Part shown: piece after piece, positions 29,018 through 45,695 of the stretch
How positions within the stretch are numbered: position 1 is the stretch's first letter
Layout of the letters: every line of letters begins with the position of its first letter
Assembly (NCBI GenBank): GCA_903862935.1
Contig: CAIOZY010000043.1
Location: forward strand, 1 to 64,000
Length of the DNA: 64,000 nt
Reading direction: 5' to 3'
DNA from: an uncultured Opitutaceae bacterium
GTDB taxonomy: Bacteria > Verrucomicrobiota > Verrucomicrobiia > Opitutales > Opitutaceae
Translations under genes and position numbers: made by a program
Notes under the pieces: generated by a model
What the model was told of the DNA's origin: nothing
Database searches by the model: none
What the model saw: only the letters and a program-made list of their open reading frames with translations

Positions 29018-30310
29018 ATGCGCCTGCGCCTCTGCCTCGCCCTCGCCGCCGCACCCCTCGTCACGGCCTCTGCGGATCCCGGCGATCTCGCCCCCGCCCA
29101 GCCTGTGATTCCCCATCGCAGCTTCAACCTAGCCGACTACGGCGCAGCGCCCGGGGGGCGCGTGGAGGCGACTGCCGCGTTCCGAAGCGCGCTCGCCGCG
29201 GTCGAGCGGGCCGGCGGGGGCACCTTGGTCGTGGGGGCCGGCGAATACTTGACCGGGCCCATCACCCTGTGCAGCAGCTGCGAGCTCCGCCTGGAGGCGG
29301 GTGCGCGAGTGCTGGCCTCGCAGGTGCCCGAGGACTATCTGCTAGGGAGCGGGCAGCGCCGGCCGCTCATCGGGGCTGAGGCCTGTCACGACATCATGAT
29401 CTCCGGGAAGGGCGTCATCGACGGGCGGGGGGAGCCGTGGTGGGCGATCGAGCGAAAGGCGAAGTCTGAGGCCCGGGCGAAAGGCCTGCACGACGCCGAG
29501 GTCGGACGCCCCAAGATGATCGTCCTCAACCGGTGCCAGCGGGTCAGGATCGAGGGCGTGACGCTCACCAACTCCCCGATGTTCCACCTGGTGCCCAGCC
29601 GCTGCGAGGACGTCACGATTGACGGAATCCAGATCCTGGCCCCGTCCGACTCGCCCAACACTGACGGAATCGACCCGTCCGTGTCCCGCCGGGTGCTGAT
29701 CGCGCGCTGCCGGATCGATACCGGCGACGACTGCATCGCGGTCAAGGCCGGCGCAAAGGGCGGGGGCCCGGCGGAGGATATCCTGGTGACGGACTGCCAG
29801 TTCCTGCACGGCCATGGCTGCTCGATTGGGAGCGACACGGTTTCGGGCGTGCGCCGGATGACCGTGAGGCGGTGCACCTTCGACGGCACCGACATCGGGG
29901 TGCGCTTCAAGTCGGCCCGGGATCGGGGCGGGGTTGTCGAGGACGTGACGTTCACGGACCTGAAGATGAGGCGCGTGCGCGAGGCCATCGTGATCAGCAG
30001 CTATTACTACGACCTTCCGAAGTACGGCAGCCGGGACAACGCAAGACCGTTGACGGCGACAACCCCGCTGTGGCGCAATCTCACCATCCGCAACGTTGTG
30101 GCGACCGAGGGCACCGGTTCGGCCGGGCTGATCATCGGGCTTCCGGAGCAACCCGCTTCGGCGATCAGGCTCGATCACGTTCGGATCGAGGCGCCGGTCG
30201 GGCTGAGGCTCGGCAACGTCCAGGGCATCTCGCTGCACGACGTCGCCATCGCGGTCCTGCGCGGGCCGCCCCTGCTCACCGACGAGACCGTGACGGGGCT
30301 GGACCAGTAG
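29018..30310 (+). CDS. Polygalacturonase (glycoside hydrolase family 28)
   Basis: A 430-residue secreted GH28 beta-helix enzyme that hydrolyses homogalacturonan. Signal peptide (LRLCLALAAAPLVTASA), then FNLADYGA, the usual GH28 opening. Catalytic motifs are seen in order: NTDGID with Asp216, GDDCIAVK with Asp237 and Asp238, GHGCSIGS with His266, and RFKSARDRGG in place of the usual RIK. Downstream it overlaps the convergent LacI gene by 35 bases. ATG 29018 lies 12 bases after the operator palindrome; a TTG at 29012 is in frame. Confidence 0.92.
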   Translation: MRLRLCLALAAAPLVTASADPGDLAPAQPVIPHRSFNLADYGAAPGGRVEATAAFRSALAAVERAGGGTLVVGAGEYLTGPITLCSSCELRLEAGARVLASQVPEDYLLGSGQRRPLIGAEACHDIMISGKGVIDGRGEPWWAIERKAKSEARAKGLHDAEVGRPKMIVLNRCQRVRIEGVTLTNSPMFHLVPSRCEDVTIDGIQILAPSDSPNTDGIDPSVSRRVLIARCRIDTGDDCIAVKAGAKGGGPAEDILVTDCQFLHGHGCSIGSDTVSGVRRMTVRRCTFDGTDIGVRFKSARDRGGVVEDVTFTDLKMRRVREAIVISSYYYDLPKYGSRDNARPLTATTPLWRNLTIRNVVATEGTGSAGLIIGLPEQPASAIRLDHVRIEAPVGLRLGNVQGISLHDVAIAVLRGPPLLTDETVTGLDQ

Positions 30311-31361
30311 ACTCGCGTGCCACCAGCAGCGGCTCGATCATGTGGACGAGCGGAGAGGGGCTAGCCACCCCCTCGATCTGCGCGAGCAGCAGGTTTGCGG
30401 CGGTGTCCACCGTCTGCTGGATTTGCTGGTCTACGCTCGTGAGGCGGGGTGTCGGCATCAGGCAGATGTCCTGGTTGTTGAAACCCGCGACAGAGACGTC
30501 CTGGGGCACCCGGACTCCCGCTTCCTGGAGGGCCTGGAGCGCCCCGATTGCAATCTCATCGTTAAGGGCGACAAACGCGGTCGGGCGATCCCGTTCCTCC
30601 ACGAAGCCGCGGGCGAGGGCCCTCCCGTACTCAAAGTCGTTGTCCCGGGCGTGGAGCGAGTCGAGCGACCGCGTCGCTCCGGCAAAGGTCAGCCCGCGCG
30701 ATCCGAGGGCCGCCTCAATCCCGACAAGGCGGTCCCGCACGGCGCGCATCGGTCCGGTGATCCCCAGCAACCCATAGGTCCGGTGTCCGAGGGTCAGCAG
30801 GTGCGACACCAACTCCCGCATTCCGCGGGACCGGTCGAGCGCCACGGTGTCGGCCCCGGATATGCCGATCTGGTCGATCACGAGGTGCGGGGTCGCGTTG
30901 GTCCGCAGCTCGCGGATCCGCAGCGCGATCTCATCCTCCACGAAGTGCCCGATGAATACGACCGCGTCCACACGAAGGGAGAGGAAGTGCCGGATCACGC
31001 GCCGGCTCCCGCCGGGCTCGAGAATCTCGATCAGCGAGGCGTACCCGCGCTCGCGGAGGCGGTGCTGCAGGCCCGCCACCTTGAGGACCGCCGTCGGCGT
31101 GAGCAGGTTCTCCATGCAAAAGCCGATTGTTGCGGTGCGCTTCCCCCTGAGGTGCAGGGCGTGGGCGTTGGGGGTGAACCCGGTCCTCTCCATCGCCTGT
31201 TGAACCCGCGCAATCGTCTTCGGCCGCAGCCCGGGCTGTGCGTTCAACACGCGCGAGACCGTGGTGCGCGCCAGCCCGACGTAGCGCGCGAATTCGGCGG
31301 TCGACCGGATAACGGGGACGGGGGCGCGATCAGGCCTTTTCTGCGAGGCGGACTTGCTCAC
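30276..31361 (-). CDS. LacI-family transcriptional regulator
   Basis: A 361-residue regulator. After a basic N-terminal extension of about 18 residues, the HTH is STAEFARYVGLARTTVSRVL (recognition helix TTVSRVLN), followed by the hinge region NAHALHLRGKRT with the minor-groove leucine. The periplasmic-binding-like core has TATIGFCMEN, HLVIDQIG, LGHRTYGLLGI and TAFVALNDEIAIGALQAL. The gene lies next to pectinase genes, so a uronate or pectin-fragment effector is likely. It is the best candidate to bind the palindromes at 28993 and 42519. No such site is seen before its own start, so autoregulation is not evident. Confidence 0.93.
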   Translation of the reverse strand: MSKSASQKRPDRAPVPVIRSTAEFARYVGLARTTVSRVLNAQPGLRPKTIARVQQAMERTGFTPNAHALHLRGKRTATIGFCMENLLTPTAVLKVAGLQHRLRERGYASLIEILEPGGSRRVIRHFLSLRVDAVVFIGHFVEDEIALRIRELRTNATPHLVIDQIGISGADTVALDRSRGMRELVSHLLTLGHRTYGLLGITGPMRAVRDRLVGIEAALGSRGLTFAGATRSLDSLHARDNDFEYGRALARGFVEERDRPTAFVALNDEIAIGALQALQEAGVRVPQDVSVAGFNNQDICLMPTPRLTSVDQQIQQTVDTAANLLLAQIEGVASPSPLVHMIEPLLVARESTGPAPSRSRR

Positions 31362-31414: not shown

Positions 31415-33538
31415 TCAGGGTCGCGGGAGTCCGCGCGCGTAGTCGAGGTTGTGGCGGGCCTGCGCATAGTCCGGACGCAGGCGCAAAGCGGCCTCGTAGC
31501 AGGCGATCGCTGGGGAAACCCGCCCCAGAGCGAGCTGGACATTTCCCAGGTCAAGCTGCGCCTCGGCGCTGCCGGGGTTCAGCTGAACGGCGGCCGACAG
31601 TTCGGCAAGGGCCCGGTCCATCATCCCGAGATGGGCCAAAAGCGTCCCAAACCGGTAGTGGCTCTCCCAGAAGCCCGGCCTGAGCCTGATCGCCTCCTCG
31701 ATCTGGAGTAACCCCTCCGAGGCGCGCCCGGTTTGAACAAGACCGAGCCCGAGGTTGTACCGGGCCTCAGCGTAGTCCGGGCTTGCGCGGACGGCTGCCT
31801 CAAACTGGTTCACGGCCTCGTCCGATCGTCCAAGCTGAAGGAGTGCGTTGCCCAGGCCGAGATGGGCGTCCGCAAAGCCCGGCTTTTGGCGGACCAATTC
31901 GGCAAAGTGTCCGGCCGCCTCGGCCAACCTGCCCTCCCGAGCGAGCAGCAGCGCCATGTTGTACCTCGCCTCCGAGTTGCGGGGGGCGACGCGCAGGGCC
32001 TCACCGTACTCCTCGAGGGCGTCGTCGTCGCGACCGCCCCGCTCGAAGACCAGACCCAGATTGTAATGGGCATCGGCCAAATCGGGCTTGATCTCGAGGG
32101 CACGCCGGAACTCCTGGACCGCCTCCTGCGAACGCCCGGCTTCGCCGAGCGCAAACCCGTAGTTGCTGTGGGCGTAGGGATTGTCCGGCCTGCGGGCGAC
32201 GGTGTCTGCGTAGAGGGAAAGCGTGCTCCGGTAGGTTGCGTTGCGGCTCGCAGTCAGGACTCCACAGGCTGCGGCAGCTGCAAAAAGCGGGACAAAGAGC
32301 AGCTTCGTTGCCGCTCGGTCCGGATCCGGCGCGGATCCGGCGGGGCCGCCCCGATGGTTTCGGCTGATTGCGCGGGACACCCATCTGTGGGCGCCGCACA
32401 CCAGCACCACCAGAACCGCAGCCAGCGGCAGGTACATGCGGTGCTCGGCCAAAGTCTGCCGGTTGCCCGGGATCAGGCTCGATGTCGGGGCAAGGATCAA
32501 AAAAAACCAGGCCCCGCAGAAACCCAGCGCCCGCCAGCCGATCTTGGGGCCGATTTCTGGCCCCTCGGCGTCCCGGGATAGGGCAAAGCCAGTGACCGCC
32601 AGCAGCCCAAAAACGATGCCACCGGGAACGGCTATTTCTCCGATTTCCGTCACCCACCGGGTCCCGTAATCAAAGATCAGCGGATGGGGAAAGATCGAAA
32701 GCCACAGATAGTGAACCAATGCCCCGGGCTGCGTCAGCGCATACTGCCAGACCCCCACCCCGCTTCCGGATCCCACCGTGCCGCCCCTGCCCCCCTCCCC
32801 CGCGACAAGCCAAGCGAGAGGAAGCCAAGTTGCGCCAAGGGCAAGGTAGTAGCGAGCGCGCTGGCGCCATGCCCCTACAAAGCTTCCCGAAAAGAACGTC
32901 CGGTCGCAGAGCAGGACGACGACCGGGGCGACCGCCATGACTTCCTTCGTGCCCATCCCCAGGAGGCAGCTCAAGACGGACACCCCCCCCCAGGCCCGCC
33001 CCCGAGCCGTCGCTCCTGAGGCGGTCTGTCCCTCCGCAAACCGGATGAACCCGTATACCGTCACCAGGAAGAACAACCCCATCAGGGACTCCGCCCGTTG
33101 AACCACATAGGTGACCGATTCCGTTTGGAGCGGGTGGAGGGTCCACAGCAGGGCGACCGCCACGGCGAGGGGTTCCGACGGGCCGGATCCCACGACCTTG
33201 GGCAGGGTCCGCCGCAGCAGTCCAAGCAGCGTCAACGCCGCAAGCAGATGGATCGCCAGATTGACCGCGTGGTAGCCCTGGACCTGAAGCCCCCCGATCG
33301 CATGGTTGATGGCCAGAGAGAGGTTGAGGACGGGCCGTCCCTCAACCGTGACGCCGCCGCCGTGCGGCGGCGCCAGCGGACCCGGCCAGGACCAAAGGTG
33401 GCGGATCGTCGGGTTGTGGACAATGGAGCCGTCGTCGTCGAATACGAACGGGGCGGTGAGGCTTGGGGCGTAGGCAGCAAGGCCCGCCAAGACGATGGCC
33501 GCTGCTGCCAGCAGCCCGGACCCGCGTCGTCGGTTCAT
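31415..33538 (-). CDS. GT-C-type membrane glycosyltransferase-like protein with C-terminal TPRs
   Basis: A 707-residue protein. Residues 1-430 form about ten membrane helices of GT-C type: the first loop has FVFDDDGSIVHNPTIRHLW (Asp34-36) and a later loop has HPLQTESVTYVVQRAESLMG, as in TMTC-like O-mannosyltransferases. Residues about 455-700 hold seven tetratricopeptide repeats (for example AHSNYGFALGEAGRSQEAV). Such proteins would glycosylate extracytoplasmic proteins from lipid-linked sugar, but the bacterial versions are uncharacterised. It is the last gene of a seven-gene minus-strand run and a paralogue of the two other full-length members. Confidence 0.8.
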   Translation of the reverse strand: MNRRRGSGLLAAAAIVLAGLAAYAPSLTAPFVFDDDGSIVHNPTIRHLWSWPGPLAPPHGGGVTVEGRPVLNLSLAINHAIGGLQVQGYHAVNLAIHLLAALTLLGLLRRTLPKVVGSGPSEPLAVAVALLWTLHPLQTESVTYVVQRAESLMGLFFLVTVYGFIRFAEGQTASGATARGRAWGGVSVLSCLLGMGTKEVMAVAPVVVLLCDRTFFSGSFVGAWRQRARYYLALGATWLPLAWLVAGEGGRGGTVGSGSGVGVWQYALTQPGALVHYLWLSIFPHPLIFDYGTRWVTEIGEIAVPGGIVFGLLAVTGFALSRDAEGPEIGPKIGWRALGFCGAWFFLILAPTSSLIPGNRQTLAEHRMYLPLAAVLVVLVCGAHRWVSRAISRNHRGGPAGSAPDPDRAATKLLFVPLFAAAAACGVLTASRNATYRSTLSLYADTVARRPDNPYAHSNYGFALGEAGRSQEAVQEFRRALEIKPDLADAHYNLGLVFERGGRDDDALEEYGEALRVAPRNSEARYNMALLLAREGRLAEAAGHFAELVRQKPGFADAHLGLGNALLQLGRSDEAVNQFEAAVRASPDYAEARYNLGLGLVQTGRASEGLLQIEEAIRLRPGFWESHYRFGTLLAHLGMMDRALAELSAAVQLNPGSAEAQLDLGNVQLALGRVSPAIACYEAALRLRPDYAQARHNLDYARGLPRP

Positions 33539-33548
33539 TGCAGGCGTT

Positions 33549-35636
33549 TCAAGGGGCGCTCGACGCCATGAGCTGCCGCTGGGCCCTCTCGAGGTTGCGG
33601 CGGGCGGCCGGATAGTCGGGGCGCAGCCTCAGGGCCTCCTGGTACTGGCCCACGGCGTCGGGAAGGCGACCGAGGAGCAGCAGAGCGTTTCCCAGGTTCA
33701 GGCGCGCCTCAGCGTACTCGGGCTGGAGGCGCACGGCCTCCCTGAAGTGGGCCAGCGCCTCGTCAAAGCGGCTGCAGTCGACCAGGGCGACCCCGAGGTT
33801 ACTGTGGGCCGCGGCGTAATCCGGCTTCAGCCTCAGCGCCTTCTCGAACAGCCCGACCGCCTCGGGCCTCCTCCCCATCCGCGTGAGCGCATTGCCGAGA
33901 TTGTAATAGGCGCCCGCATCCTCGGGGTCCAGTTCCACGGCCCGTTCGAACAGCCCGACCGCCTCGTCCAGCCGTCCCTGGGTCATCCGGACATCGCCGA
34001 GGTTGTTGGACGCCTCGGGGTAGGACGGATCGAGCCGCAGGGCCTCGGTGTATTGTCCGGCCGCATCGTCCTGCCTGCCGGCCCGCACCAGGGCGTTGGC
34101 AAGGTTGAAGTGGGCGTGGGCGTAGCGCGGCTTGATCCGCACGGCCCGCTCGAAGCAGCCGATGGCCTCCTCGCCCCGCCCCAAGGCGCTCAGGGCCATC
34201 CCGTAGTTGTTGTTTGCGACCGCGTCCCACGGGTTCAACCGCAGGGCAATCGCATACTCCTTCAGGGCCGCGGCGGTCTGGCCGGCGTTCATCAGCCCGT
34301 CGGCGAGGTTGCCGTGGGCCCTTGAGTTCTCGGGCCGGCGGGCGGCCGTGTCCTGCCAGATCGCAAGCTCCGAGCGGTAATCGCTGTTGCGCTCAAGGCT
34401 CGTCCACCCGAGCCCCGTCGCAACACCAGCGACCGCCACAATCCGCCCCCGGGTTGCCACCTTCCAAACCGCCAGCACAAAGAGTACCGCAAGAGCCGCC
34501 AGGGGCAGGTACATCCGGTGTTCGACGATCATCTGCGTTGTGCCGGGCATCAGGGAGGTTGGAGCCAGGATCCCGAAGAACCAAAATCCCAAGAAGCCGT
34601 AGATCGGGGCCCGCACGAGGGCCCAGACCGTGGCCGCCGCAAGAACAGACACCGCGAGAGCGTACGGTGCCGCCTGGGTGGGGGTCACCCAGAATGTCCC
34701 GTACTCGAACACCAGGGGATGGGGCCAAACCGCGAGCCTGAGATAGGTCATGACCGCCTCAAACTGCGTCAGGATGTAGCCGCCCCAGGGCGCGCCGGTT
34801 CCGAAGCCGACTGAGCCGCTGCGGTTGCCGCCCGTCGACGCGATCAGGCCAAGCAGGGGAAGCCAGGTCGCTGCGAGGGCGAGGTAGTAGCCCTTGCGGC
34901 GCCTCCAGGCCTCGGCAAGGCTCCCCGCGCAGAACGTCCGGTCGAAGACAAGGATCATCACGGGAGCCGTCACCATCACCTCCTTGGTGCCCATCCCGAG
35001 CAGGCAGCAGGCGACCGAAAGAGCGCCCCAGAAGGACCCTCCCTCTCGCAGGCCACCGGGCCCGGAAGGCGGCGCGCCCTCCGCATGCCGGACGAAGCAG
35101 TACAGGGTCAGAAGGTAGAAGAGTCCCATGAGGGACTCCGCCCTCTGGATGACGTACGTTACCGCCTCGGTCTGCAGGGGGTGCACGGTCCAGATGAGGG
35201 CGACGCCAAGGCCGAAGAGCAGGGGGCCCGCGGGCCGCTCGGCCGCGCCGGCGGCGGGGGCGGCTCGTCCCGCCGCAAGCCGCTCCGCCGTGCGTCGGAC
35301 GATCCCGAGCAACGCCAGGCCCGCCGCGAGATGGATCGCAAGGTTAAGCGCGTGGTAGCTCCACACGCGAGTCCCGCTGACCGCGTAGTTGACCGCGAAG
35401 GATAGGTTGAGCACGGGCCTTCCCTCGATCGTCAGACCCTCTCCGTGCGGGGGCGCAAGCGCCGCCCAGATTGGCCACAGGTGCCTGATCGACCGATTGT
35501 CCAGGATGGCCGGAGCGTCGTCGTAGATGAACGGCCCCGAGAAGCTATTGTGGTAGGCGGCGCAGCCTGCCAGCACCAGGATGCAGGCCGCCAGCGGGGT
35601 CTTCCAGGAACCGAGTCGCGATGCGGGAGCCGACAT
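33549..35636 (-). CDS. GT-C-type membrane glycosyltransferase-like protein with C-terminal TPRs
   Basis: A 695-residue paralogue of the downstream gene, with high visible identity (HPLQTEAVTYVIQRAESLMG; CCLLGMGTKEVMVTAPV). The first extracytoplasmic loop has FIYDDAPAILDNRSIRHLW with Asp39-Asp40. Membrane part about 1-440; TPR part about 455-690, with seven repeats such as AYYNLGNALTRMGRRPEAVGLFEKALRLKPDY. Ten bases separate it from the next gene. The repeats are very regular, as expected of recent duplication. Donor and acceptor are unknown. Confidence 0.8.
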   Translation of the reverse strand: MSAPASRLGSWKTPLAACILVLAGCAAYHNSFSGPFIYDDAPAILDNRSIRHLWPIWAALAPPHGEGLTIEGRPVLNLSFAVNYAVSGTRVWSYHALNLAIHLAAGLALLGIVRRTAERLAAGRAAPAAGAAERPAGPLLFGLGVALIWTVHPLQTEAVTYVIQRAESLMGLFYLLTLYCFVRHAEGAPPSGPGGLREGGSFWGALSVACCLLGMGTKEVMVTAPVMILVFDRTFCAGSLAEAWRRRKGYYLALAATWLPLLGLIASTGGNRSGSVGFGTGAPWGGYILTQFEAVMTYLRLAVWPHPLVFEYGTFWVTPTQAAPYALAVSVLAAATVWALVRAPIYGFLGFWFFGILAPTSLMPGTTQMIVEHRMYLPLAALAVLFVLAVWKVATRGRIVAVAGVATGLGWTSLERNSDYRSELAIWQDTAARRPENSRAHGNLADGLMNAGQTAAALKEYAIALRLNPWDAVANNNYGMALSALGRGEEAIGCFERAVRIKPRYAHAHFNLANALVRAGRQDDAAGQYTEALRLDPSYPEASNNLGDVRMTQGRLDEAVGLFERAVELDPEDAGAYYNLGNALTRMGRRPEAVGLFEKALRLKPDYAAAHSNLGVALVDCSRFDEALAHFREAVRLQPEYAEARLNLGNALLLLGRLPDAVGQYQEALRLRPDYPAARRNLERAQRQLMASSAP

Positions 35637-35668
35637 GGGGAGTGGGGTTTGTTTCTGCCAGTGTGAAA

Positions 35669-36625
35669 TCAGCGAGGCAACGGCAAAGGCGGCCCCGAGG
35701 CTTCGCTCTGCTTCAGGGCGAGCGCCAGATTATTGCGGGCCTCCTCAAAATCCGGACGGATCCGGAGCGCCGCCTCGAACTGCTCGATCGCCTCGGAGAG
35801 TTGCCCGGATTCCGCGAGAGCGTTGCCCAGGTTGTTGCGGGCCTCCGCAAAGTCACCGCGAAGAGCGATCGCACGGCGGTAGTGGGCGATCGCCTCCCCT
35901 GTCCGACCGGCGGCCATCAGGCAGGCTCCCAGATTGCACTCGGTGTCGGCGTCGCCCGGCCGGAGGCTGAGGGCGGCCCGGTACTGGGCCAGGGCCTCGC
36001 CGAGACGTCCGGCGCGCAGCAGGGCGTTGCCGTAGGCATTCAGGGCCTCGGTGTCATCCGGCCTTGCCGAGAGAGCCCGCCGCAGGTGGACGATGCCCTC
36101 CGATACGCGGCCTGTCGCCACGAGCACGATTCCCAGGTTGCATTCGGCGTCCGGATACCCGGGTCTTTCGGCGAGCGCCGCGCCAAGCTCCGCTATGGCC
36201 TCCGCCGGCCGGCCGGACCGATACAGGGCGACGCCCAGGTTCGCCCGGGCCTGGGTATAGTCGGGCTTCACCGCCAAGGCCGCCCGATATTGGGCGATCG
36301 CCTCCTCGAGCCGGCCTTGATGCACCAGCACGATTCCCAGGTTGTTGCGGGCTTCCGCGTAGTCGGGCCTGAGCCGAAGCGCCGTCTCGTAGGAGGGGAT
36401 GGCGTCGGCATAGCGGCCCTCGGCTACGAGGGCGACTCCCAGGTTGTTGTGCGACAGTGCATTTTTCGGCCTTGCCACAGCCGCGGCCCGCCACAGTCCC
36501 TCGGCGCTCGAGTAATCGCGGTTGCGCAGCACCGTGCAAAGCGCAAGCGCCGCTGCAGCGGCCACAACGACACCGGCCGTCCAGCCCACCCTCCCCCTCG
36601 GGGCCTCGCCCGGTCCGCGGCTCAT
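35669..36625 (-). CDS. TPR protein, C-terminal half of the GT-C/TPR family
   Basis: A 318-residue protein with one membrane segment (about 13-33, GWTAGVVVAAAAALALCTVL) followed by RNRDYSSAEGLWRAAAVARP, the same junction found before the TPRs in the full-length paralogues, then about eight TPRs. It therefore corresponds to the last membrane helix plus TPR half, without the GT-C catalytic half. It could serve as an accessory or docking subunit, or be a relic of gene splitting. Its start overlaps the previous gene's stop by four bases, arguing for coupled translation. Confidence 0.78.
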   Translation of the reverse strand: MSRGPGEAPRGRVGWTAGVVVAAAAALALCTVLRNRDYSSAEGLWRAAAVARPKNALSHNNLGVALVAEGRYADAIPSYETALRLRPDYAEARNNLGIVLVHQGRLEEAIAQYRAALAVKPDYTQARANLGVALYRSGRPAEAIAELGAALAERPGYPDAECNLGIVLVATGRVSEGIVHLRRALSARPDDTEALNAYGNALLRAGRLGEALAQYRAALSLRPGDADTECNLGACLMAAGRTGEAIAHYRRAIALRGDFAEARNNLGNALAESGQLSEAIEQFEAALRIRPDFEEARNNLALALKQSEASGPPLPLPR

Positions 36626-37521
36626 GGGCCCCTCCCCTCTCCAGGGCCGCCCTGCCGGGCCCGGGCGGCCTCGAGGTTGCGCTGCGCCTCGGCGTAGTCC
36701 GATCTGAGGCTAAGAGCCCGCTCGAACCTCGATGCCGCCTCGGTCAGGCGCCCCTCGGAGGCAAGCACGACCCCGAGGTTGTTCTCGGCCTCGGCGTAGT
36801 CCGCCCGGATTCGGAGAGCCTGTCCCAGGGCCTCTTTCGCCTCCTGGAGCCTGCCGAGGGCTGCGAGCGCCGTCCCGAGTTCATTGGCTGCCTCGGCGCG
36901 GGCGGGATCGAGTCGCAGGGACTGGGCGTACGACTCGGCCGCCTCCTGAAGCCGGCCCTCCTGGGCAAGCGCAAGGCCGAGGTTGTAGTGGGACACCGCC
37001 CATTCGGGTCCGAAGCGGACCGCGGCCTCAAAGTGGGCGCAGGCCTCGGGGAGCCGGCCTTCGTTTAGTAGCATCGTTCCCAGGTCGTTCTGGACGAGCG
37101 GCTCCCGGGGATTGATCTCGAGGGAGGCCTCGTAATGGGCCATGGCGTCTTCCAGCCTGCCGCTCTTCCGAAGTGCGCTCGCCAGGTCGGCGTGCGCCTC
37201 GGCGTAGCGGGGTCGCAGCCTGAGCGCGGCTTCATACTGCGCTATCCCTTCGGCTGAGCGGCCGGCGGCAACCAGGGCGTCGGCGAAGTTTGCCCGCGCG
37301 ATCGCGTTGTCCGGGCGCATGAGGACCGTCTGATTCCACAGAGGGAGCGCGCCGCGGTAGTCGCCGTTGCGCAGCCAGGTCATCCTCCCGAACCCCAGGG
37401 CAACCAGCCCCAGGATCGCGGCGGCGGCCCACTCCACTGGGGTGCTGATGGGGACAAATCCTCGCATATCCGGCGTGCGAGCCTTCACGCTACGGGCGGG
37501 CTCCGCAGGGAGGCCATTCAA
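36622..37521 (-). CDS. TPR protein, C-terminal half of the GT-C/TPR family
   Basis: A 299-residue protein built like its downstream neighbour: one membrane segment at about 31-49 (VEWAAAAILGLVALGFGRM), then the junction LRNGDYRGALPLWNQTVLMRPDNAIARANFADAL, then about seven TPRs. It lacks the catalytic GT-C half. Six bases separate it from the upstream full-length gene, and it overlaps the downstream gene by four. The TPR-only genes lie directly after a full-length or GT-C-only gene, suggesting function as pairs. Confidence 0.78.
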   Translation of the reverse strand: MNGLPAEPARSVKARTPDMRGFVPISTPVEWAAAAILGLVALGFGRMTWLRNGDYRGALPLWNQTVLMRPDNAIARANFADALVAAGRSAEGIAQYEAALRLRPRYAEAHADLASALRKSGRLEDAMAHYEASLEINPREPLVQNDLGTMLLNEGRLPEACAHFEAAVRFGPEWAVSHYNLGLALAQEGRLQEAAESYAQSLRLDPARAEAANELGTALAALGRLQEAKEALGQALRIRADYAEAENNLGVVLASEGRLTEAASRFERALSLRSDYAEAQRNLEAARARQGGPGEGRGP

Positions 37522-37527
37522 AACCGA

Positions 37528-39432
37528 TCATCGTGCCCCCTCCGCCAGGGCCTGGCGCGCCTGATCGAGGTTTGCCCTCGCGATTGGAAAGTCGGGCCGC
37601 AGGCGCAGCGCCGCCTCGAAGTGCTCGATCGCTTCGGGCAGCCGGCCGGCGCGGGCAAGGACCAATCCGAGATTGTTGTGCGCCTCGGGGTCAGCCCCGT
37701 TCAACCGCACCGCCCGCTCGCAGTCCTGGATCGCCCCAGGCAGATCCCCCAGCAGGGCAAACACCGTTCCCAACTCGTTCCAGCTCTCGGCACTGCTGGG
37801 ATCCAGCTGCAGGGCGGACTTGTAGCGGCCGATCGATTCCTCAAGGCGCCCGGCCTTGGCCAAGGCGTAGGCGAGGCTGGCCTGGGCCGGCGCGAAGTTG
37901 GGCTGGCTCTCGGCGGCCGTCGCATACTCCTGAATGGCCCGGTCGAGCTCGCCCTGCTCAAGCAGGACATCCCCGAGTTTCAGCCTCGTCAGGATGAGGC
38001 CTGGCTCCGCCCGGAGCGCCTCCTCGTAATGGTCGGTGGCCTCCCGCGTCCGCCCGAGCCTCCGGAGCAGGTCTCCGCAGTTCGAATGGGCCTCCGAGAA
38101 CCCCGGCTTGAGACGCACCGCCTCGGAGAACTCGCGGAGTGCATCCGCGGGCCTGCCCGCGAGGACGAGCGCGTTCGCCAGATTGTAGCGCACAGGCGCG
38201 GACAAGGGGTTCCGCGCAGCTGCGGCTCCCCAGAGGCTCACTCCGTCCCTGAAGATCCCGGCATAGCCGCGGCTTTCGATCATCAGGACGGCGAGGAGGG
38301 CTCCCACCGCGGCTGCGGCCAGCGGGCGCACCCTCTCGGAGAGCCTGGCCCGGACCCATCCGGCTCCGGCCGCCGCAAGCCCCACGAGGCCGATCAGGGG
38401 AATGTAGGCAAAATGATCGGATACCGGGCTCAGACGCATGAACGACATGGTCAGAAAGCCCAGTACCGGAACGAGGGTGATGACGAAGAATCCGAGCCCA
38501 AACAACCATGGCCGGCCCCAGGTCGTCCTCCGGGACCACAGGACCGTGAAGGCGGCCGCTAACCCGATCCAGGGGATGAACTGCGCCGGCTGCAAAGCTT
38601 TCGCCCAGCCCGGATAAACCGGCATCAGCCCGGCTGGGAAAAGGCACTTGCCTGCGTAGAAGCAGATCGCCATGCCGGCGCCGGCAAGCCGGGACAGGGG
38701 CCCTCCGATCTCGATGTGCTCGGCCCCGATGGCCCTGCTCCACTGGAACCAGATGGTGACCCATCCCAGGACGCCCGATATCGCGAAAAACGGAAGAACG
38801 GCAGCAGCGTCCCTCCTGCCCAGGCGCCCCCTCACCCACCAGGCATGCAGCAGCAGGACGACCGGCAGCATCACGACCGAAGCCTTGCAGAGCATCGCCG
38901 CAAGGAAGGCAGCCAGGGACAGGGCGTAGGCCCTGCGCCCTCCCAAGCCCCGGTCCCAGTTGAGAAAGGCAAGCGCGGACACAAGAAAGAGCGGCAGCGA
39001 CAGCGTGTTCTTCTGCTCGGAAATCCAAGCAACCGACTGGACCGCAACCGGGTGAACGGCGAAAAGGACCCCTCCGAGCCAGGCCAGGTGGACCCCGAGC
39101 CGTGCCAGCAGCCGCCACAGCAGAAGCGCCGCGGCGGCGTGGGCGACCAGACTCACCGCGTGATACCCGAAAGTCTGTCCTCCAAAAAGATGCCATTCCA
39201 GCCACTGAACCGTGGACTTTAGCGGGAGGTAGTCGGGGCCGGGCGGCGCGAACCAGATCTTCGCCAGGCCGCTGCCATCGCGAAGCGTCGGGTTTCCCAC
39301 GACCTCCGACACATCATCCCAGACCCAACCGCCGCGCAGGGATGGCAAATAGACGAAGATCAACGCCAGCAAGATTGCGGCTCCACCGAGAAGCCGGTCT
39401 ATGCGGTCGATGGTATCGCGCCCTTGGGTCAT
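37528..39432 (-). CDS. GT-C-type membrane glycosyltransferase-like protein with C-terminal TPRs (TMTC-like)
   Basis: A 634-residue protein, more distant from the two other full-length copies. The first loop has GGWVWDDVSEVVGNPTLRDG with Asp39-Asp40, and a later loop has HPVAVQSVAWISEQKNTLSL, close to the TMTC pattern of animal O-mannosyltransferases and common in bacterial GT-C/TPR proteins. Membrane part about 1-385; the TPR region (about 400-630) has six or seven repeats. It overlaps the upstream TPR gene by four bases. Probable role: protein O-glycosylation in the envelope; substrate unknown. Confidence 0.82.
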   Translation of the reverse strand: MTQGRDTIDRIDRLLGGAAILLALIFVYLPSLRGGWVWDDVSEVVGNPTLRDGSGLAKIWFAPPGPDYLPLKSTVQWLEWHLFGGQTFGYHAVSLVAHAAAALLLWRLLARLGVHLAWLGGVLFAVHPVAVQSVAWISEQKNTLSLPLFLVSALAFLNWDRGLGGRRAYALSLAAFLAAMLCKASVVMLPVVLLLHAWWVRGRLGRRDAAAVLPFFAISGVLGWVTIWFQWSRAIGAEHIEIGGPLSRLAGAGMAICFYAGKCLFPAGLMPVYPGWAKALQPAQFIPWIGLAAAFTVLWSRRTTWGRPWLFGLGFFVITLVPVLGFLTMSFMRLSPVSDHFAYIPLIGLVGLAAAGAGWVRARLSERVRPLAAAAVGALLAVLMIESRGYAGIFRDGVSLWGAAAARNPLSAPVRYNLANALVLAGRPADALREFSEAVRLKPGFSEAHSNCGDLLRRLGRTREATDHYEEALRAEPGLILTRLKLGDVLLEQGELDRAIQEYATAAESQPNFAPAQASLAYALAKAGRLEESIGRYKSALQLDPSSAESWNELGTVFALLGDLPGAIQDCERAVRLNGADPEAHNNLGLVLARAGRLPEAIEHFEAALRLRPDFPIARANLDQARQALAEGAR

Positions 39433-40178
39433 GGGGAATCCACCGTCTTTGGCCCGTTCCGGGCGAAATCCAAGTTTCGCCTGGCGGCGTCAAAATCGGG
39501 TTTGAGCCTGAGGGCCACCTCATATTGGGAGGCAGCCTCGGCTTGTTTTTCTGCGCGCAGGAGCGCGTTTGCCAAGTTAAAATGGGCCTCAGCGGACTCG
39601 GGGCTCAGGGCGGCGGCCTTCTCAAATGCGGCGATCGCATCGACGGGTCGACCCAAGTCCTGGAGCGAGTTGCCCAAGTTGGTTGCCGCATCAGCGTAGT
39701 CGGGTCTCAGACGAAGGGCCTCCTGCAGGTGGGCGACCGCATCGGTCGGCCTCCCCATCAACAGGCACATGAGCCCCTGGTTGTAGGCGACCTCGGCAAA
39801 GTTCGGCCTGAGCGCCGCGGCATGGCCGTAATGCTCCGCGGCTTGCGCGTAGCGGCCCTGGCTCGCAAGCCTTATGCCTAGGTTGTTATGGGCTATGGCC
39901 AAGTTCTCTCGGGCCTGCGGGTAAGCCGGCTTCAGACGCAGGGCGATGTCGTACTGCAGGATCGCCTCCTCATACAGCCCTGCGCCAACGAGGACCGCCC
40001 CCAGGTTGTTGTGCGCAACCGGGTTTCCGGGCCGCTTTGCGACAGTGTCCTCCCAGATGCCGCGTTCGCTCGAATAGTCCTGGGTGCGGGTTGCGGTGGT
40101 TGCGCCCAGCGCGAGCGCCGCCGCGGCCACCGCGACCGCCGCGGCCTTTGCACCCGATCCTATGTCGTGAACGCTCAT
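39429..40178 (-). CDS. TPR protein, C-terminal half of the GT-C/TPR family
   Basis: A 249-residue protein with one membrane segment (about 9-27, AKAAAVAVAAAALALGATT), the junction RTQDYSSERGIWEDTVAKRPGNPVAHNNLG shared with the paralogues, and about six TPRs. The start ATG 40178 lies four bases after the stop of the upstream GT-C gene; the frame is open upstream but only as the other frame of that gene. It may complement that GT-C protein, which has no TPRs of its own. Confidence 0.78.
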   Translation of the reverse strand: MSVHDIGSGAKAAAVAVAAAALALGATTATRTQDYSSERGIWEDTVAKRPGNPVAHNNLGAVLVGAGLYEEAILQYDIALRLKPAYPQARENLAIAHNNLGIRLASQGRYAQAAEHYGHAAALRPNFAEVAYNQGLMCLLMGRPTDAVAHLQEALRLRPDYADAATNLGNSLQDLGRPVDAIAAFEKAAALSPESAEAHFNLANALLRAEKQAEAASQYEVALRLKPDFDAARRNLDFARNGPKTVDSP

Positions 40179-40182
40179 CGGT

Positions 40183-42444
40183 TCACTGGAGGAGCCCACT
40201 TGCCACAAGCTCCTCGGGCATGTCGCGGCCGAGCTCGGCCGGGGGCCCGTCCAGGGCCCTCGCCAGATCCGAGCCGTCGAGCCGGAACACAAGGATCGAT
40301 CCGTGAAGCTGCACGTCGGGCCCGCGGTGCCTCAGGTACGCCGCGAGCCGGGAAAACCGCAGCGCGTCGAACTCGCCGACATCGCGCAGCAGGTTCCACC
40401 AGTCCTGTGTCGAGCCCCGCCCCAGTGCGGCGGCGCGCGCGCCGGGGTCGTCTCCCATGAGGGGGATCATCTCGGAGCGCAGCGTCTGATAGCGCGCCTC
40501 GAAGCGTCTGTTCCAAGGGCCCCAAGGCGCTTTCAGACTGTATTCCATTTGCTGCAGCACCGTCGCGCTCACTAGGTAGGTTCCCGGGACCAGGCGCAGG
40601 TCCGCAGCGCGCTTCAACCAGATGACCCGGACGAGGCCGGTTGTGTTCACCACCGCCGTGCCCGCCTTTTCGTATTCGGGATGGCTCCTGAGGAACTCGT
40701 CCATTCCGGCCTTAAGACGGTCCGGTTCAAAGTCCGTTGTCATGACCGGGAGGGAACCGGCCGGCTCTTCGCTTGGGGAGGCGCAGTTGGTGACGCTCGC
40801 CCGGACTCCGTAGGCAGCCGGACTGGCACTGCCGAAATACGACAGGGAAAAGGGGCCCTGCCCAGGGTGAGCCTCGATATACTGACGCACAGCCGGCAGG
40901 TCCTGGCCCCAGTCGAGCGAACTGTCCACAAGGTGACGGTATGCCGTGGCCGGGCGCACGAAGCCGTTGAAATAGGCAATGTAGTCGGGAAAGCTCCAGG
41001 CGGTCTCCAGCGCAAGGATGCCCAGCAGGCAGATCGTCGATCGTCGGATCCAGCGCGACCCGGGAAACGCCTCACCCGGGGCTCCGCCCCAGCCCGGGGC
41101 AAGCGCCGTTCCACAAAGAGTGAAGAGGGGGGGATAGACCGCGAGAATGTGGCGGTGGCCTATGTCGAGGTGCCCAAAGCTGGCCGCGGCGCCAGCTATG
41201 GCGATCAGCGTCCACAGGGGAAGCGTCGCATAGATGCCGCGCCCCGCCTGGGCCATAGACGTTGTCCCCTCGCGCCCCCTCACAGCCGCCCAGCGTCTTG
41301 CAGTCGCCAGCCCTGCGAGGCCCATCAGGGCGAGGAGCGCGATCGGGGTCTTAACAAGGAAGGTATAGGGGAAGAAAAGCCGCCAGCCCTGCAGGCTGTG
41401 CTCCCCGTTCCAAAAGGCATCTCTCCAGCGGGAGAACTTCCAGGCGTAGGCGCAGCCGTAGAGGAACCCCTCCGGCAGCACGTGATACCGCCGGGCTGCG
41501 TCGAACACCTGCTGGGGTCCGGCGGAGCGGCTGGTTCCCAGCACCTGTTCCCAGGACGGATCGAACTGCCCCGGCCCGCCGCGTGTTGCCGAGAAAGCCG
41601 AATACCGAAACCCATAGGCCGCCCAGACGACCGCAGCGGCGACCAACGCGACCGCTGCGAACCCCGCAGTGACAGCCGCAGCCTGGACCCATCGCGACCT
41701 AATCTCCCTCCGCCAGCGGCCTGCGGAGGCAGCAAGTGGGCCGCCGCAGGCCACCCGGGCTGCGCCGAGAACCAGAGCAATGGGCGCTACGAGCGCTCCG
41801 GACATCTTGCACACCAGCAGCGCACCGACGGCGAGACCCGCAAGTCCGACCCTAGCCGCGGACAGCTGTCCTAAGACGGCCCAAAGGGCGAGGGCCGCCC
41901 CAAGCAGGCCCAACGCAGCCGCCGCGTCCGAGGTCATCAGGGCCCCATTGGCCAGAATCGTCGGATTGAGAGCGTAGAGCAGCAGTGCGATCATCCCCCC
42001 GGTGCGGCCGGACAGCCGCGCCGCGGCGAGCCATACCGCAAAGCCCAGCGCGACGGCGATCAGCGCGCAGGCTGCCCGGCCCCCGCGCAGCATGGATTCA
42101 AAACTGTTGCCCTGCCGGTAGAACCACGAGTCGGCGACGGCCCACTCTCTCGAGAGTCGCCAGGCTTCGGAATCCCGTCGCGGGGGATCGACCGGGGCGA
42201 GGGCCAGTGGGAGACCCGCCACGCGCTGCGGAAGGTTTCCCGCCTCGGGATTGATCCGGTAGTCGTTCCACCTCCAGTAGGTAAAGCCGCCCGTCGCGTG
42301 AACCAGCTCGTCGTAGGTGGGGCTCTTGTTCCACAGGCTACCCCAAATCAGGAGCCAGAAGCCCGCGAGCACCGCGCCAGCAACCAGGAAGTCCCGGAGT
42401 CCCAGGCGGGGGCTGGCGTCGGAGGGGGTGGGTCCGGCATTCAT
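40183..42444 (-). CDS. GT-C/GT39-like polyprenol-phosphate-sugar glycosyltransferase
   Basis: A 753-residue membrane protein without TPRs. About 11 membrane helices lie in residues 18-520, followed by a soluble extracytoplasmic part (about 520-753). The first loop has WNKSPTYDELVHATGGFTYW with the acidic pair Asp45-Glu46, the catalytic position in PMT/ArnT-type GT-C enzymes; later motifs are NPTILANGALMTSDAAAA and HRHILAVYPPLF. It heads the seven-gene run. ATG 42444 is chosen just before the first helix; an in-frame ATG at 42513 would place the start next to the operator palindrome. Predicted to transfer a sugar onto a protein or lipid; substrate unknown. Confidence 0.8.
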   Translation of the reverse strand: MNAGPTPSDASPRLGLRDFLVAGAVLAGFWLLIWGSLWNKSPTYDELVHATGGFTYWRWNDYRINPEAGNLPQRVAGLPLALAPVDPPRRDSEAWRLSREWAVADSWFYRQGNSFESMLRGGRAACALIAVALGFAVWLAAARLSGRTGGMIALLLYALNPTILANGALMTSDAAAALGLLGAALALWAVLGQLSAARVGLAGLAVGALLVCKMSGALVAPIALVLGAARVACGGPLAASAGRWRREIRSRWVQAAAVTAGFAAVALVAAAVVWAAYGFRYSAFSATRGGPGQFDPSWEQVLGTSRSAGPQQVFDAARRYHVLPEGFLYGCAYAWKFSRWRDAFWNGEHSLQGWRLFFPYTFLVKTPIALLALMGLAGLATARRWAAVRGREGTTSMAQAGRGIYATLPLWTLIAIAGAAASFGHLDIGHRHILAVYPPLFTLCGTALAPGWGGAPGEAFPGSRWIRRSTICLLGILALETAWSFPDYIAYFNGFVRPATAYRHLVDSSLDWGQDLPAVRQYIEAHPGQGPFSLSYFGSASPAAYGVRASVTNCASPSEEPAGSLPVMTTDFEPDRLKAGMDEFLRSHPEYEKAGTAVVNTTGLVRVIWLKRAADLRLVPGTYLVSATVLQQMEYSLKAPWGPWNRRFEARYQTLRSEMIPLMGDDPGARAAALGRGSTQDWWNLLRDVGEFDALRFSRLAAYLRHRGPDVQLHGSILVFRLDGSDLARALDGPPAELGRDMPEELVASGLLQ

Positions 42445-42518
42445 GGCGGCGGCTCTCGCTAAGAGGCTGCGAGCCCTGGACGGTCTTAACGAGCTTTTTT
42501 GGCCAACTCCCATGAAAC

Positions 42519-42617: not shown

Positions 42618-45600
42618 ATGCAATCCCAACCGCAACTTGGCGGCGCTATGCGCGCCTTTTTCGCCATCGTCGGCAGCGTCATCATCGCGTCCTCCGCGCT
42701 CGCCCAGAGCCCGGCGACCGGAATGATCACGGGCCGGGTGCTCAACGGAGCCAACGGACAGTACCTTGAGAGCGCCCGCATCTCTGTGGTCGGCACCCAG
42801 GCCGAGACCGTGACCAACCTCTACGGTGAATACCGGTTGACAGGCGTCCCGGCCGGGGCGGCCAAGGTCGAGGTCTTCTTCAGCGGCCTGGTGACCCAGA
42901 CCGCCGTCGTCGAGGTCCAGGCCGGCCAAGAGGCCCAGCAGGACTTCACCATGAAGACCGCCGCCCAGACGGCCTCCGGCGAGGTGCTGAAGCTGGACGC
43001 CTTTGTCATCGAGGCCGAGCGCATGACCAACGCCAACGACATCGCGATCAATGAACAGCATTTCGCCCCGAACATGAAGTACGTGATGCCGGCGGCCGCG
43101 TTCGGAACGATCACGGAAGGCAACCTGGGCGAATTCCTGAAGTTCCTGCCCACGGTGACGGTCGACTACAACTCGATGGACGCCCGCTGGATCATGGTGC
43201 AGGGCGTAAGCCCGCGGTACACTTCGGTGACCGTCGACGGGATGCGCATGGCAAGCGCCGCCTCCACGAGCCCAGGCCGGTTCTTCGAACTCGAGCAGGA
43301 TTCGATCCACAACATGGCGCGGGCCGAGGTGTCGGTGTCCCGGACCCCGGACCTGCCTGCCGACGCCCTCGGCGGCTCGATCAACATGGTGAGCCTGAGT
43401 GCGTTCGAGTACACCCACCCGGAACTCGACTATAACTTCAACTTCGTCGGCAACAGCGCCTTCATGGAGTTCGGCAAGACCCCCGGTGCTGTCGACGACA
43501 AGGAGACGATGAAGGTTATGCCGGGCGGCTCGCTGACCGCGATCATGCCGCTGACAAAGAACTTCGGCTTCACCCTGGCGATTCTTGACTCGAACATGTA
43601 CAACCCGCAGTACCGCTCGAATCCGAGTTGGTTCGCCAACGGCACCAATACCGCGCAGGCGGCCTCGAGCCCGTACCTGACGGCCCCCTATCTCGAGAAG
43701 TACACCCTGCAGGACGCGCCGAAGTACACGATCCGCCAGGCCTACTCGGCCCATGCGGAGTGGAAGATCAACAACGAGAACCGGCTGTCGTTTGAGGTCC
43801 AGGAAAACTACTACGACGCTTACGTCCACGCCCGCGGCATCAGCTTCGACACGGGCACGGGCGCCATGGTGGCGGCGGCGATGCCGGCCACGACCGTGGC
43901 CGGCGACTACGGTCAGACCTACACCGACGGGCTGGCCGGAAAGGGCTCGGTCACCATGTACTCGAGCGACCGAAAGAAGTTCGGGCGCACCTTCCACTTC
44001 GGCGCCCGCTTCAACCATGACGGCCCGGTTTGGACGGCCAACGCCGGCTTCGCGTTCTCCCACGCCTCCGCCCACTACGCGGACGCGGCCAACGGCTATC
44101 CCGACGTGATCAGCCTGACGATGAAGAGCGTCACGGTGAACTACGCCGGCCTAGATACGTTCGGCTACATCCGCCCGGGGATCGTCAACGTGTACAACAC
44201 GGCGTCGACCCCCGTGCAGCTCAACCCGTGGAGTTACGCCAACTACAACCTGGCCTCCATCACCTCCGATCCCGCGGATGCGGTCGACGTCATGAAGACC
44301 ATCAAGGGTGACATCAGGCGGGAATTCGAAACCCCCGGCGGCCGGACCACGATGACCCTGGGCGGCCAGATTCAGTATGAGAACCGCGACATTCACGCCC
44401 TCAAGAATGTCTTCAGCTTCCTACCGACCGGAGCGGCGGCTCTCGCGGGCAACTATAACTTCTTGGACAGCGCCTATTCCCGCGTTGCCCCGCCCTGGGG
44501 CTTTCCGCAGGTCCAGTGGGCGAGCAACAACTCGGTCTTCAACTACTTCCAGGCGAACCCGGCCAATTTCTCCCTCGTCCAGACCGGAACGGGCGGGTCG
44601 ATCGCCTACGAGACCATGCAGTCGCCGTACTTCACGGAGGAAATCCCGGCCGTGTATGTCATGGCCGACACGAAGTTGCTGCACAACCGCATCGATCTGG
44701 TCTACGGCGTCCGCTACGAGGAGACCCACGACAAGATATGGGGCGGGCTCTTCAGCCCGAGCGCCGGGTCGACCCTGCCGGCCGGCTCCGCGGCCCAGCT
44801 GCTCGCGCAGTACCAGCCCCGCGCGGCCCATGTGACCCAGAATTACAGCGGCGCCTATCCGAGCATCAACCTGACGTTCAACATCACCGAACAGCTGATC
44901 CTGCGCGCCGCCTACGGGCGGGCCGTCGGACGGCCCGACCTGAACAACATCATCCCCGGGTATGCGACGATCAACACGACCTCCCAGACGATCAGCGCGC
45001 CCAACCCGACCCTGGCGCCCGAGCAGGCGAGCAATTTCGTCGTGGGCGTACAGTACTACCCGGTCAAGGGAGGCGTGTTCGGAGGCGACGTCTTCTCGAA
45101 GAACTTCGCCAACTTCTGGGGAACCGTGACGACCAGCGCCACACCGGCCCTGCTCAGCCAGCTCGGTCTTTCCTCGGACTACCTCGGCTACCAGGTCACC
45201 ACCTCGATGAACTCCGGCACCGCAACGGTACGGGGCATCGATTTGAATTACCGCCAGAGCCTGTACTTCCTGCCGGGATGGGCCAACGGCTTCACCGTCT
45301 TCGCGAACGGGACCGCCCTTCATTTGAGCGGTGCGACAAACGCCGACTTCACCAACTTCATCGCCCGGGAGCTCAACTGGGGCGTCACCTATGCCCAGCC
45401 GCGGTTCTCCATCCAGCTGAACTGGAACTTCCGTGGACGGGAGCGCATGGGAAGCCTGGCCTTTGATCCGTCGGGAGCTGGCTACCAATACATCGAACCC
45501 AGGCTGCAGACCGACGGCGAGATCGGCTTCAACCTGACGAAGAACTGCACGCTCTATCTCAGCGGTCGAAACATCACGAACCAGCCTTGGGATAACCAGA

Positions 45601-45695
45601 TGAACTACAGCCCCAATACGCCCGGCTACGCTAAGGTTCTGCGCCGCGAGTACTTCGGCGCAATCTGGCAGCTCGGCGTCAAGGGCAAGTTCTAA
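42618..45695 (+). CDS. TonB-dependent receptor with carboxypeptidase-like N-terminal domain
   Basis: A 1025-residue outer-membrane receptor. A signal peptide lies at about 11-29 (MRAFFAIVGSVIIASSALA; ATG 42648 is an alternative start). A carboxypeptidase-regulatory-like domain (about 35-110, ITGRVLNGANGQYLESARIS) comes next, then the plug (LGEFLKFLPTVTV, VDGMRMASAAS, RTPDLPADALGGSINM) and a 22-strand barrel. The C-terminus ends with an aromatic residue (GVKGKF), as expected for Bam insertion. With the GH28 gene ten bases downstream, uptake of pectin oligosaccharides is a reasonable inference. No SusD homologue is present, which differs from Bacteroidetes loci. Confidence 0.93.
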   Translation: MQSQPQLGGAMRAFFAIVGSVIIASSALAQSPATGMITGRVLNGANGQYLESARISVVGTQAETVTNLYGEYRLTGVPAGAAKVEVFFSGLVTQTAVVEVQAGQEAQQDFTMKTAAQTASGEVLKLDAFVIEAERMTNANDIAINEQHFAPNMKYVMPAAAFGTITEGNLGEFLKFLPTVTVDYNSMDARWIMVQGVSPRYTSVTVDGMRMASAASTSPGRFFELEQDSIHNMARAEVSVSRTPDLPADALGGSINMVSLSAFEYTHPELDYNFNFVGNSAFMEFGKTPGAVDDKETMKVMPGGSLTAIMPLTKNFGFTLAILDSNMYNPQYRSNPSWFANGTNTAQAASSPYLTAPYLEKYTLQDAPKYTIRQAYSAHAEWKINNENRLSFEVQENYYDAYVHARGISFDTGTGAMVAAAMPATTVAGDYGQTYTDGLAGKGSVTMYSSDRKKFGRTFHFGARFNHDGPVWTANAGFAFSHASAHYADAANGYPDVISLTMKSVTVNYAGLDTFGYIRPGIVNVYNTASTPVQLNPWSYANYNLASITSDPADAVDVMKTIKGDIRREFETPGGRTTMTLGGQIQYENRDIHALKNVFSFLPTGAAALAGNYNFLDSAYSRVAPPWGFPQVQWASNNSVFNYFQANPANFSLVQTGTGGSIAYETMQSPYFTEEIPAVYVMADTKLLHNRIDLVYGVRYEETHDKIWGGLFSPSAGSTLPAGSAAQLLAQYQPRAAHVTQNYSGAYPSINLTFNITEQLILRAAYGRAVGRPDLNNIIPGYATINTTSQTISAPNPTLAPEQASNFVVGVQYYPVKGGVFGGDVFSKNFANFWGTVTTSATPALLSQLGLSSDYLGYQVTTSMNSGTATVRGIDLNYRQSLYFLPGWANGFTVFANGTALHLSGATNADFTNFIARELNWGVTYAQPRFSIQLNWNFRGRERMGSLAFDPSGAGYQYIEPRLQTDGEIGFNLTKNCTLYLSGRNITNQPWDNQMNYSPNTPGYAKVLRREYFGAIWQLGVKGKF

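Follow-up and report, generated by a model that had tools for sequence, protein, structure and literature searches.

A seven-gene run of GT-C/TPR genes and TPR-only half-size genes in a pectin locus of an uncultured Opitutaceae bacterium

The seven-gene run and its setting

The window analysed here comprises 64,000 nucleotides of an uncultured Opitutaceae bacterium (GCA_903862935.1, contig CAIOZY010000043.1, positions 1 to 64,000), the source genome of which is 3.35 Mb in 62 contigs and 95.55% complete. A run of seven minus-strand genes, referred to here as A–G, had been proposed in an earlier sequence-only reading to consist of one gene for a GT-C protein, three for GT-C proteins with TPRs, and three which start at the last transmembrane helix (TM11) and continue into TPRs, and this composition was confirmed from the ORFs. 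The run and its immediate neighbours are as follows:

TonB-dependent receptor: 42618..45695, (+) strand, divergent from A and 104 nt apart
A: 40183..42513, (-) strand, 776 aa, GT-C protein without TPRs, PMT/ArnT-like
B: 39429..40178, (-) strand, 249 aa from the ATG (longest ORF 287), half-size, 5 TPRs
C: 37528..39432, (-) strand, 634 aa, full-length GT-C + TPR, second subtype (GC)
D: 36622..37521, (-) strand, 299 aa from the TTG at 37521 (first ATG at 37467), half-size, 6 TPRs
E: 35669..36625, (-) strand, 318 aa, half-size, 7 TPRs
F: 33549..35636, (-) strand, 695 aa, predicted full-length TMTC-like GT-C + TPR, subtype GF
G: 31415..33538, (-) strand, 707 aa, full-length GT-C + TPR, subtype GF
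LacI-family regulator: 30276..31361, (-) strand, 53 nt downstream of G

The run is tight, as had been described, with borders of +4, -4, +6, -4, +32 and +10 nt for A/B, B/C, C/D, D/E, E/F and F/G, and the four-base overlaps which had been reported for it are found at just two of these six borders. The pectin LacI gene is on the same strand and could close the A–G transcript, while the TonB receptor is divergent and separated from the TPR genes by A. Pfam matches confirm the suggested location inside a pectin locus: UxaE, UxaC, KduI, GH88, MFS, pectinesterase, GH28 and LacI make up the left flank, and the right flank has the TonB receptor, GH28 and an SSF symporter. In two sister species, too, the pectin locus contains GT-C/TPR genes. 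No second instance of the A–G gene order was found among the other loci annotated in our survey.

The array had also been thought to be expanding, and this does not hold for the locus itself, where the copies are old. Recent local duplication was rejected because there are no long direct repeats beyond diverged TPR units (direct repeats of at least 40 nt are just 62-nt TPR units with 61–77% identity), and the best full-length matches of B, D and E share no more than 50% identity among the matches listed. The family is instead enlarged genome-wide: a search of the source genome gave 32 junction matches with E of 1e-8 or lower, and a second array of eight consecutive full-length genes lies on another contig (C55).

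Predicted fold of the full-length proteins, and the separate family of A

F has seven TPRs, and its full-length AlphaFold2 model, built with 45 sequences (pLDDT 92.2), contains what we read as eleven transmembrane helices (residues 12–33, 91–123, 137–151, 162–187, 200–215, 219–237, 240–267, 319–342, 344–362, 378–393 and 398–419), with a further helix (284–303) in an outer loop and the TPR superhelix beginning at residue 423. The matches listed in a fold search with the whole protein were mostly TPR proteins, and we therefore modelled the GT-C part by itself (pLDDT 89.1). The best 18 rows of the Foldseek search with this second model were all GT-C enzymes, headed by Pmt4 (9i5k, E 1.1e-4, TM 0.53), AftB (9dlh, 2.5e-4) and ArnT (5f15, 6.9e-4), and structural comparisons gave VIA Z 20.2 with the oligosaccharyltransferase OST (3waj; 322 aligned, 4.3 Å), 19.2 with ArnT (330 aligned, 4.4 Å) and 18.8 with Pmt4 (337 aligned, 4.4 Å). 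A GT-C profile had zero matches to PDB sequences at E 1 or better. No TMTC chain was present among the fold matches listed, which does not speak against a likeness to TMTC.

F-type sequences have a set of residues that are invariant in all 45 members aligned (D39 D40, R73 P74, R165 E167, K218 E219, and E372 R374 Y376). In the GC subtype, which includes C, the first loop has either DD or ND, a Lys is found in the third loop and D-H lies close to the last, with the second Asp kept in 38/38 ungapped sequences and K183 and D339 each kept in 41/41. On the computed fold of F and these motifs, F, G and C would most simply be regarded as a glycosylation-type apparatus of GT-C/TPR proteins. The protein glycosylation apparatus proposed earlier is thus sustained as regards fold and motifs, and its acceptor and sugar are putative.

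Protein A matches PMT_2 with 21.3 bits, below the curated Pfam cut-off of 26.1, and has a D68 E69 pair which at least 95% of the 20 homologues aligned also have; this is probably the PMT-like acidic DE pair of the first outer loop. It lacks the junction motif discussed below and has no detectable sequence kinship with F (hhalign probability 0.6%), and the suggestion that it shares common descent with the rest of the run is not supported. To judge from its sequence, A is a member of a separate PMT/ArnT-like GT-C family, matches to which were found in 23 of 57 genomes (source genome included). At a genus-level locus (L153, L154, L155, L156 and L157), two or three A-family genes lie near one GF gene, and in 4/5 of these cases a PF00535 family-2 glycosyltransferase is also found beside the GF gene; this is possibly a polyprenyl-phosphate sugar synthase, and we counted it as support for donor supply. 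We also note a BspA-type leucine-rich-repeat ORF elsewhere (L045:1126-7031) which overlaps an A-family ORF by 4 nt and may be another client pairing.

Half-size genes at the locus and in relatives

B, D and E each have an N-terminal hydrophobic helix (that of D is marginally below the stricter hydrophobicity cut-off) followed by five, six and seven TPRs, respectively, without a GT-C part. At the junction they can be aligned with the TM11/TPR boundary of the full-length genes, where in the F model the last transmembrane helix (residues 398–419) gives way to the TPR helices (from 423), so that they start at TM11, which has presumably been retained as an export anchor. The common descent claimed earlier for the TPR junctions is upheld by the motif for B, D, E, F and G, and does not extend to A. 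The C junction has diverged, with a score (32 bits) lower than that of each of the 134 full-length F-type genes scored. B, D and E score 86.7, 69.8 and 70.8 bits with a profile made without the window rows, corresponding to the 58th, 16th and 18th percentiles of these 134 genes, and in mean TPR score they rank at the 53rd, 60th and 97th percentiles of 173 full-length genes. Although C sits between B and D, the B, D and E junctions group with the F-type (GF) and outside the C-type (GC). The motif marks the whole GT-C/TPR family and not this locus alone, and one common origin for the three half-size genes is neither supported nor contradicted by the AU test (p 0.47), with the tree largely unresolved and its bootstrap support unsettled.

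It had been recognised from the outset that half-size genes might prove to be frameshifted full-length genes, and the evidence is that, on the present sequence, they are genuine. A check of all three forward frames ahead of each half-size gene revealed no GT-C coding, and directly upstream of B, D and E are the ends of A, C and D, leaving no room for a GT-C part. The codon-usage scores also fit the annotated frames, with 0.23, 0.31 and 0.29 for B, D and E compared to 0.25–0.38 for A, C, F and G, from which the reference table was built, and with negative scores for the three genes in all five other frames. The start of E overlaps D by 4 nt and has a purine-rich GGAGAGGGGAGGGG stretch ahead of the ATG. 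A 13-codon ATG frame (37490-37532), which is out of frame with D, lies over the stop of C, and the start of D is uncertain (TTG or ATG). Among the matches listed, B, D and E missed the NCBIfam equivalog cut-offs for PilW, Tgl and MamA (for E, these were 127.7 of 154, 153.9 of 225 and 116 of 200, respectively).

We surveyed relatives, which are mostly MAGs (Opitutaceae, Opitutae and Opitutia), several of them from fens, bogs and lakes according to the isolate names. The first survey covered 122 loci including the window and, after 17 duplicate ORFs were dropped, yielded 199 distinct junction ORFs, 177 of which are full-length. The other 22 are B, D and E, 14 ORFs running off the end of a contig or locus, two with GT-C coding directly upstream (L145 and L147), two which we assign to a different family (L069) and to a spurious frame (L093), and one lone half. 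This last, L066:454-1299 (G008:C399), is an F-type half which starts inside TM10 and is preceded by 450 nt devoid of GT-C coding, and it is the only intact half besides B, D and E in the first survey. A second sample of 40 loci, taken in list order while skipping same-array neighbours and contig starts, provided 61 ORFs, with 60 full-length, one partial and no half. Among the matches listed for 100 family genomes, B, D and E and two contig-end ORFs account for all frames shorter than 460 aa; among those listed for 13 genus genomes, such short frames comprise the same three genes, L066, five contig-end ORFs and one interrupted full-length gene.

Rows of full-length GT-C/TPR genes are common in relatives and halves are exceptional. 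Tandem runs are ordinary (25/137 distinct runs have at least two genes) and a 4-nt overlap is possible in 31/61 adjacent gene pairs, while two genomes of the genus, G010 and G012, have 44 junction matches each. The picture is mixed with respect to the refuting condition set with the original proposal, namely that relatives would have unlinked single genes, as both tandem runs and single genes are found, and halves like those of the window are not. We note that one full-length GC gene (L065:2604-4037, G002:C32) is split into two frames, and is either a pseudogene or the result of a sequencing error.

Receptor neighbours, competing readings and known systems

LacI orthologues with 78% and 72% identity were found in G010 and G012, respectively. 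In G010 a TonB receptor gene and a GC gene lie between LacI and SSF/pectinesterase/GH28, and these two ORFs overlap by 4 nt provided that the GC gene starts at a TTG. The GC gene of the G012 locus comes after GH28 and MFS. No GT-C/TPR genes were found in the fetched stretch of the LacI locus of G001 (same genus, LacI 62%), or in those of two (G016 and one of two in G018) of the five LacI matches from other genera, the remaining three being in G014, G022 and G018. Orthology of the GC genes across the three pectin loci was not supported by a quick tree, in which they do not form one clade, and one clade was not rejected (AU p 0.28).

A more general pattern, first noticed beside several arrays and then tested, is seen in the genes next to GT-C/TPR runs. 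We counted 137 runs with the 'half' ORFs and 131 once ORFs lacking GT-C had been removed everywhere except in the window, dropping runs which shared a gene with an earlier run, and regarded those with at least 1.5 kb of flank as testable (102 upstream and 115 downstream, where downstream receptors were counted only if there was no upstream receptor). Seven receptors, namely those of the window and L168 and five from the first survey, served as seeds for the receptor profile, which was then iterated over the loci of that survey. A codirectional receptor lies directly upstream of 19/102 testable runs (18 of the 19 confirmed by Pfam) and downstream of 0/115, with two upstream divergent and two downstream convergent receptors among the 131 runs. 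The surveyed loci have a background of 34 receptors among 1011 ORFs, and the excess is significant (Fisher p 2e-7; binomial p 1e-14 when half of the receptor frequency within the loci is taken as the expectation), while 83/102 testable runs have no receptor directly upstream in this orientation.

The second sample provided 35 new runs after 11 already counted were dropped, with 31 testable upstream and 25 downstream. Upstream receptors were codirectional in 5/31 (four Pfam-confirmed) and divergent in 4/31 (four confirmed), and 4/25 runs had a downstream receptor (one codirectional and three convergent), against a background of 19 receptors among 202 ORFs (p 0.014 for codirectional upstream, 0.002 for either orientation upstream and 0.20 for downstream). 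The association thus holds in both samples, and in the second it is modest, and less sharp in strength and orientation. The calls for L080 in the first sample and L205 in the second come from our custom profile, as neither receptor has a Pfam match at 1e-5. Loci with upstream receptors include:

First sample: L018:16910-19903, L058, L061, L063, L093, L100, L101, L105, L106, L109, L111, L112, L120, L125, L128, L134, L140, L150
Second sample: L176, L181, L191, L204

Receptor and GT-C distances for 20 pairs (18 codirectional and two divergent, with L080 left out) are correlated, with r 0.32 overall (8 of 5000 permutations) and r 0.67 and 0.79 within two receptor types (each 1 of 5000 permutations), all of these being values which ignore species kinship. 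Ser/Thr enrichment in the paired receptors was considered and rejected, as their content does not differ from that of unpaired receptors (18 vs 14, p 0.47; L097, counted as 'unpaired', probably duplicates one of the paired receptors). The source genome has just one strong OMP_b-brl_4 match, namely the receptor which immediately precedes the C55 array. This recurrent pairing of TonB-type receptors with GT-C/TPR genes is new in this analysis, and among the titles listed in searches of the open-access literature there was none on such arrays or on their pairing with TonB receptors. It points to outer-membrane clients and is the most useful lead to come from this work.

The reading we prefer, and to which we give an even chance, is that the run is a TMTC-like array for the glycosylation of envelope proteins in which B, D and E are non-catalytic TPR adaptors. 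F, G and C would be polytopic GT-C enzymes (by the predicted fold of F and the motifs of all three) whose catalytic face, like the TPR superhelix, would be periplasmic; there, as known GT-C enzymes and TMTCs suggest, sugar from a polyprenyl-phosphate carrier would be transferred to exported proteins held by the TPRs. Given the recurrent neighbourhood, the clients would probably be outer-membrane proteins, for instance TonB-type receptors, encoded in the operon itself or in one next to it, and A may act as a second PMT/ArnT-like transferase of the array, unrelated by sequence. B, D and E may have arisen from F-type genes by loss of TM1–TM10 with TM11 left as a signal anchor, so that the TPR half would still reach the periplasm, and would most likely serve as acceptor-binding adaptors without catalytic activity, which is the weakest step in this mechanism.

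The main competing view of the half-size genes is that they are recent relics which have lost the catalytic half and have yet to decay, leaving just A, C, F and G as the working apparatus. The near absence of half forms elsewhere (L066 among 199 ORFs, and 0/61 in the second sample) favours this, as does the doubt over the start of D caused by the out-of-frame ATG over the stop of C, and we regard relics as a fair suspicion that falls short of being probable, since the frames are intact (249–318 codons), codon usage and TPR scores are both normal, the borders are tight with a strong purine-rich stretch before the start at D/E, and the export helix has been kept in all three. It is unlikely that B, D and E are instead general periplasmic TPR scaffolds or assembly chaperones (PilW/Tgl-like) for the neighbouring receptor, with no part in glycosylation. 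They are TPR-only and membrane-anchored, there is a TonB receptor in the locus, and a receptor neighbourhood recurs for the family, but this neighbourhood belongs to the full-length genes, B, D and E seem to derive from GT-C/TPR genes, and the equivalog cut-offs were unmet among the matches listed.

The target of the enzymes and the location of the array can also be questioned. The best fold matches of F include ArnT and AftB, and the array sits amid sugar genes, as might be expected if the GT-C/TPR genes made or modified a polysaccharide or lipid and not proteins. However, the protein-acceptor enzymes OST and Pmt4 match equally well, and the GT-C enzyme is fused to a TPR superhelix, the nearest architecture being that of TMTC, a system for protein O-mannosylation (PMC7801869), and we consider a polysaccharide or lipid target improbable. 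A good case, if a little under an even one, can be made that such genes are frequent enough in the genome for the array to be in the pectin locus by chance, with the numbers of junction matches given above (32 in 3.35 Mb, and 44 in each of G010 and G012), the GC genes of three pectin loci not forming one clade, and G001 lacking a GT-C/TPR gene in the fetched stretch. Against this, all three genus genomes with a LacI of at least 72% (the source included) carry GT-C/TPR genes there, differently arranged.

Returning to the glycosylation array, we offer as speculation, and as rather improbable in its full form, a scheme of client-dedicated glycosylation in these Opitutaceae, where a good share of the numerous TMTC-like transferases would each form an operon with one TonB-type receptor, recognised through the TPRs and glycosylated in transit, and in which the recognition half has here been split into three anchored adaptors handing pectin-locus clients to a shared A, C, F and G. 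TMTC-type enzymes have been studied in animals, and the receptor pairing gives the bacterial family a testable client, while the three TPR-only offshoots represent a natural split of acceptor binding from catalysis.

TMTC1–4 (CAZy GT105) are the animal O-mannosyltransferases of cadherins. As in TMTC, F has an 11-TM GT-C domain (by the TM count read from the model) followed by TPRs, and the model of F also shares the helix in the TM7–TM8 loop. Full-length prokaryote TMTC homologues are noted, typically as not yet well characterised, in PMC7801869, in which motifs M1–M4 and M7 (Table 4) provide a comparison set for the invariant F-type residues. The DD of M1 in the first outer loop is present (D39 D40, 45/45). 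Of M4, KE(T/Q)xxT in EL3, the KE is invariant (45/45), but the next residue is V in F and in at least 90% of members. E372 R374 Y376 is comparable to the E/R/Y of the fifth outer loop (PMC7801869). By eye, however, the RxD (M3), DW (M5) and ERxxY (M7) of human TMTCs correspond to RxE, DY/EY and ExRxY in the F-type (PMC7801869), with EY at the M5 position in F and DY in the majority. PF08409 (TMTC_DUF1736) matched 0/45 F-type members at E 0.01 and had no match in the source genome or in 14 control genomes. We call the F-type TMTC-like and not TMTC because M3, M5 and M7 differ and the DUF1736 match is absent; on its model, F would work like a TMTC, yet we keep it out of the TMTC family. The F-type also differs in being bacterial, often in tandem, and sometimes beside TonB receptors.

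F shares its predicted GT-C fold with the PMT/GT39 and ArnT-type enzymes, and PMT_2 is matched weakly by A and by 13/45 F-type GT-C domains. To our knowledge, PMT/GT39 and ArnT-type enzymes have no TPRs, unlike the F-type. A TPR superhelix joined to a glycosyltransferase is also found in OGT/SPINDLY, and the TPR part of F compares well with the OGT TPR structure (6eou, Z 28.4, 258 aligned, 2.6 Å), but OGT/SPINDLY are soluble, whereas the catalytic domain of the F-type is predicted to be of the membrane-bound GT-C kind.
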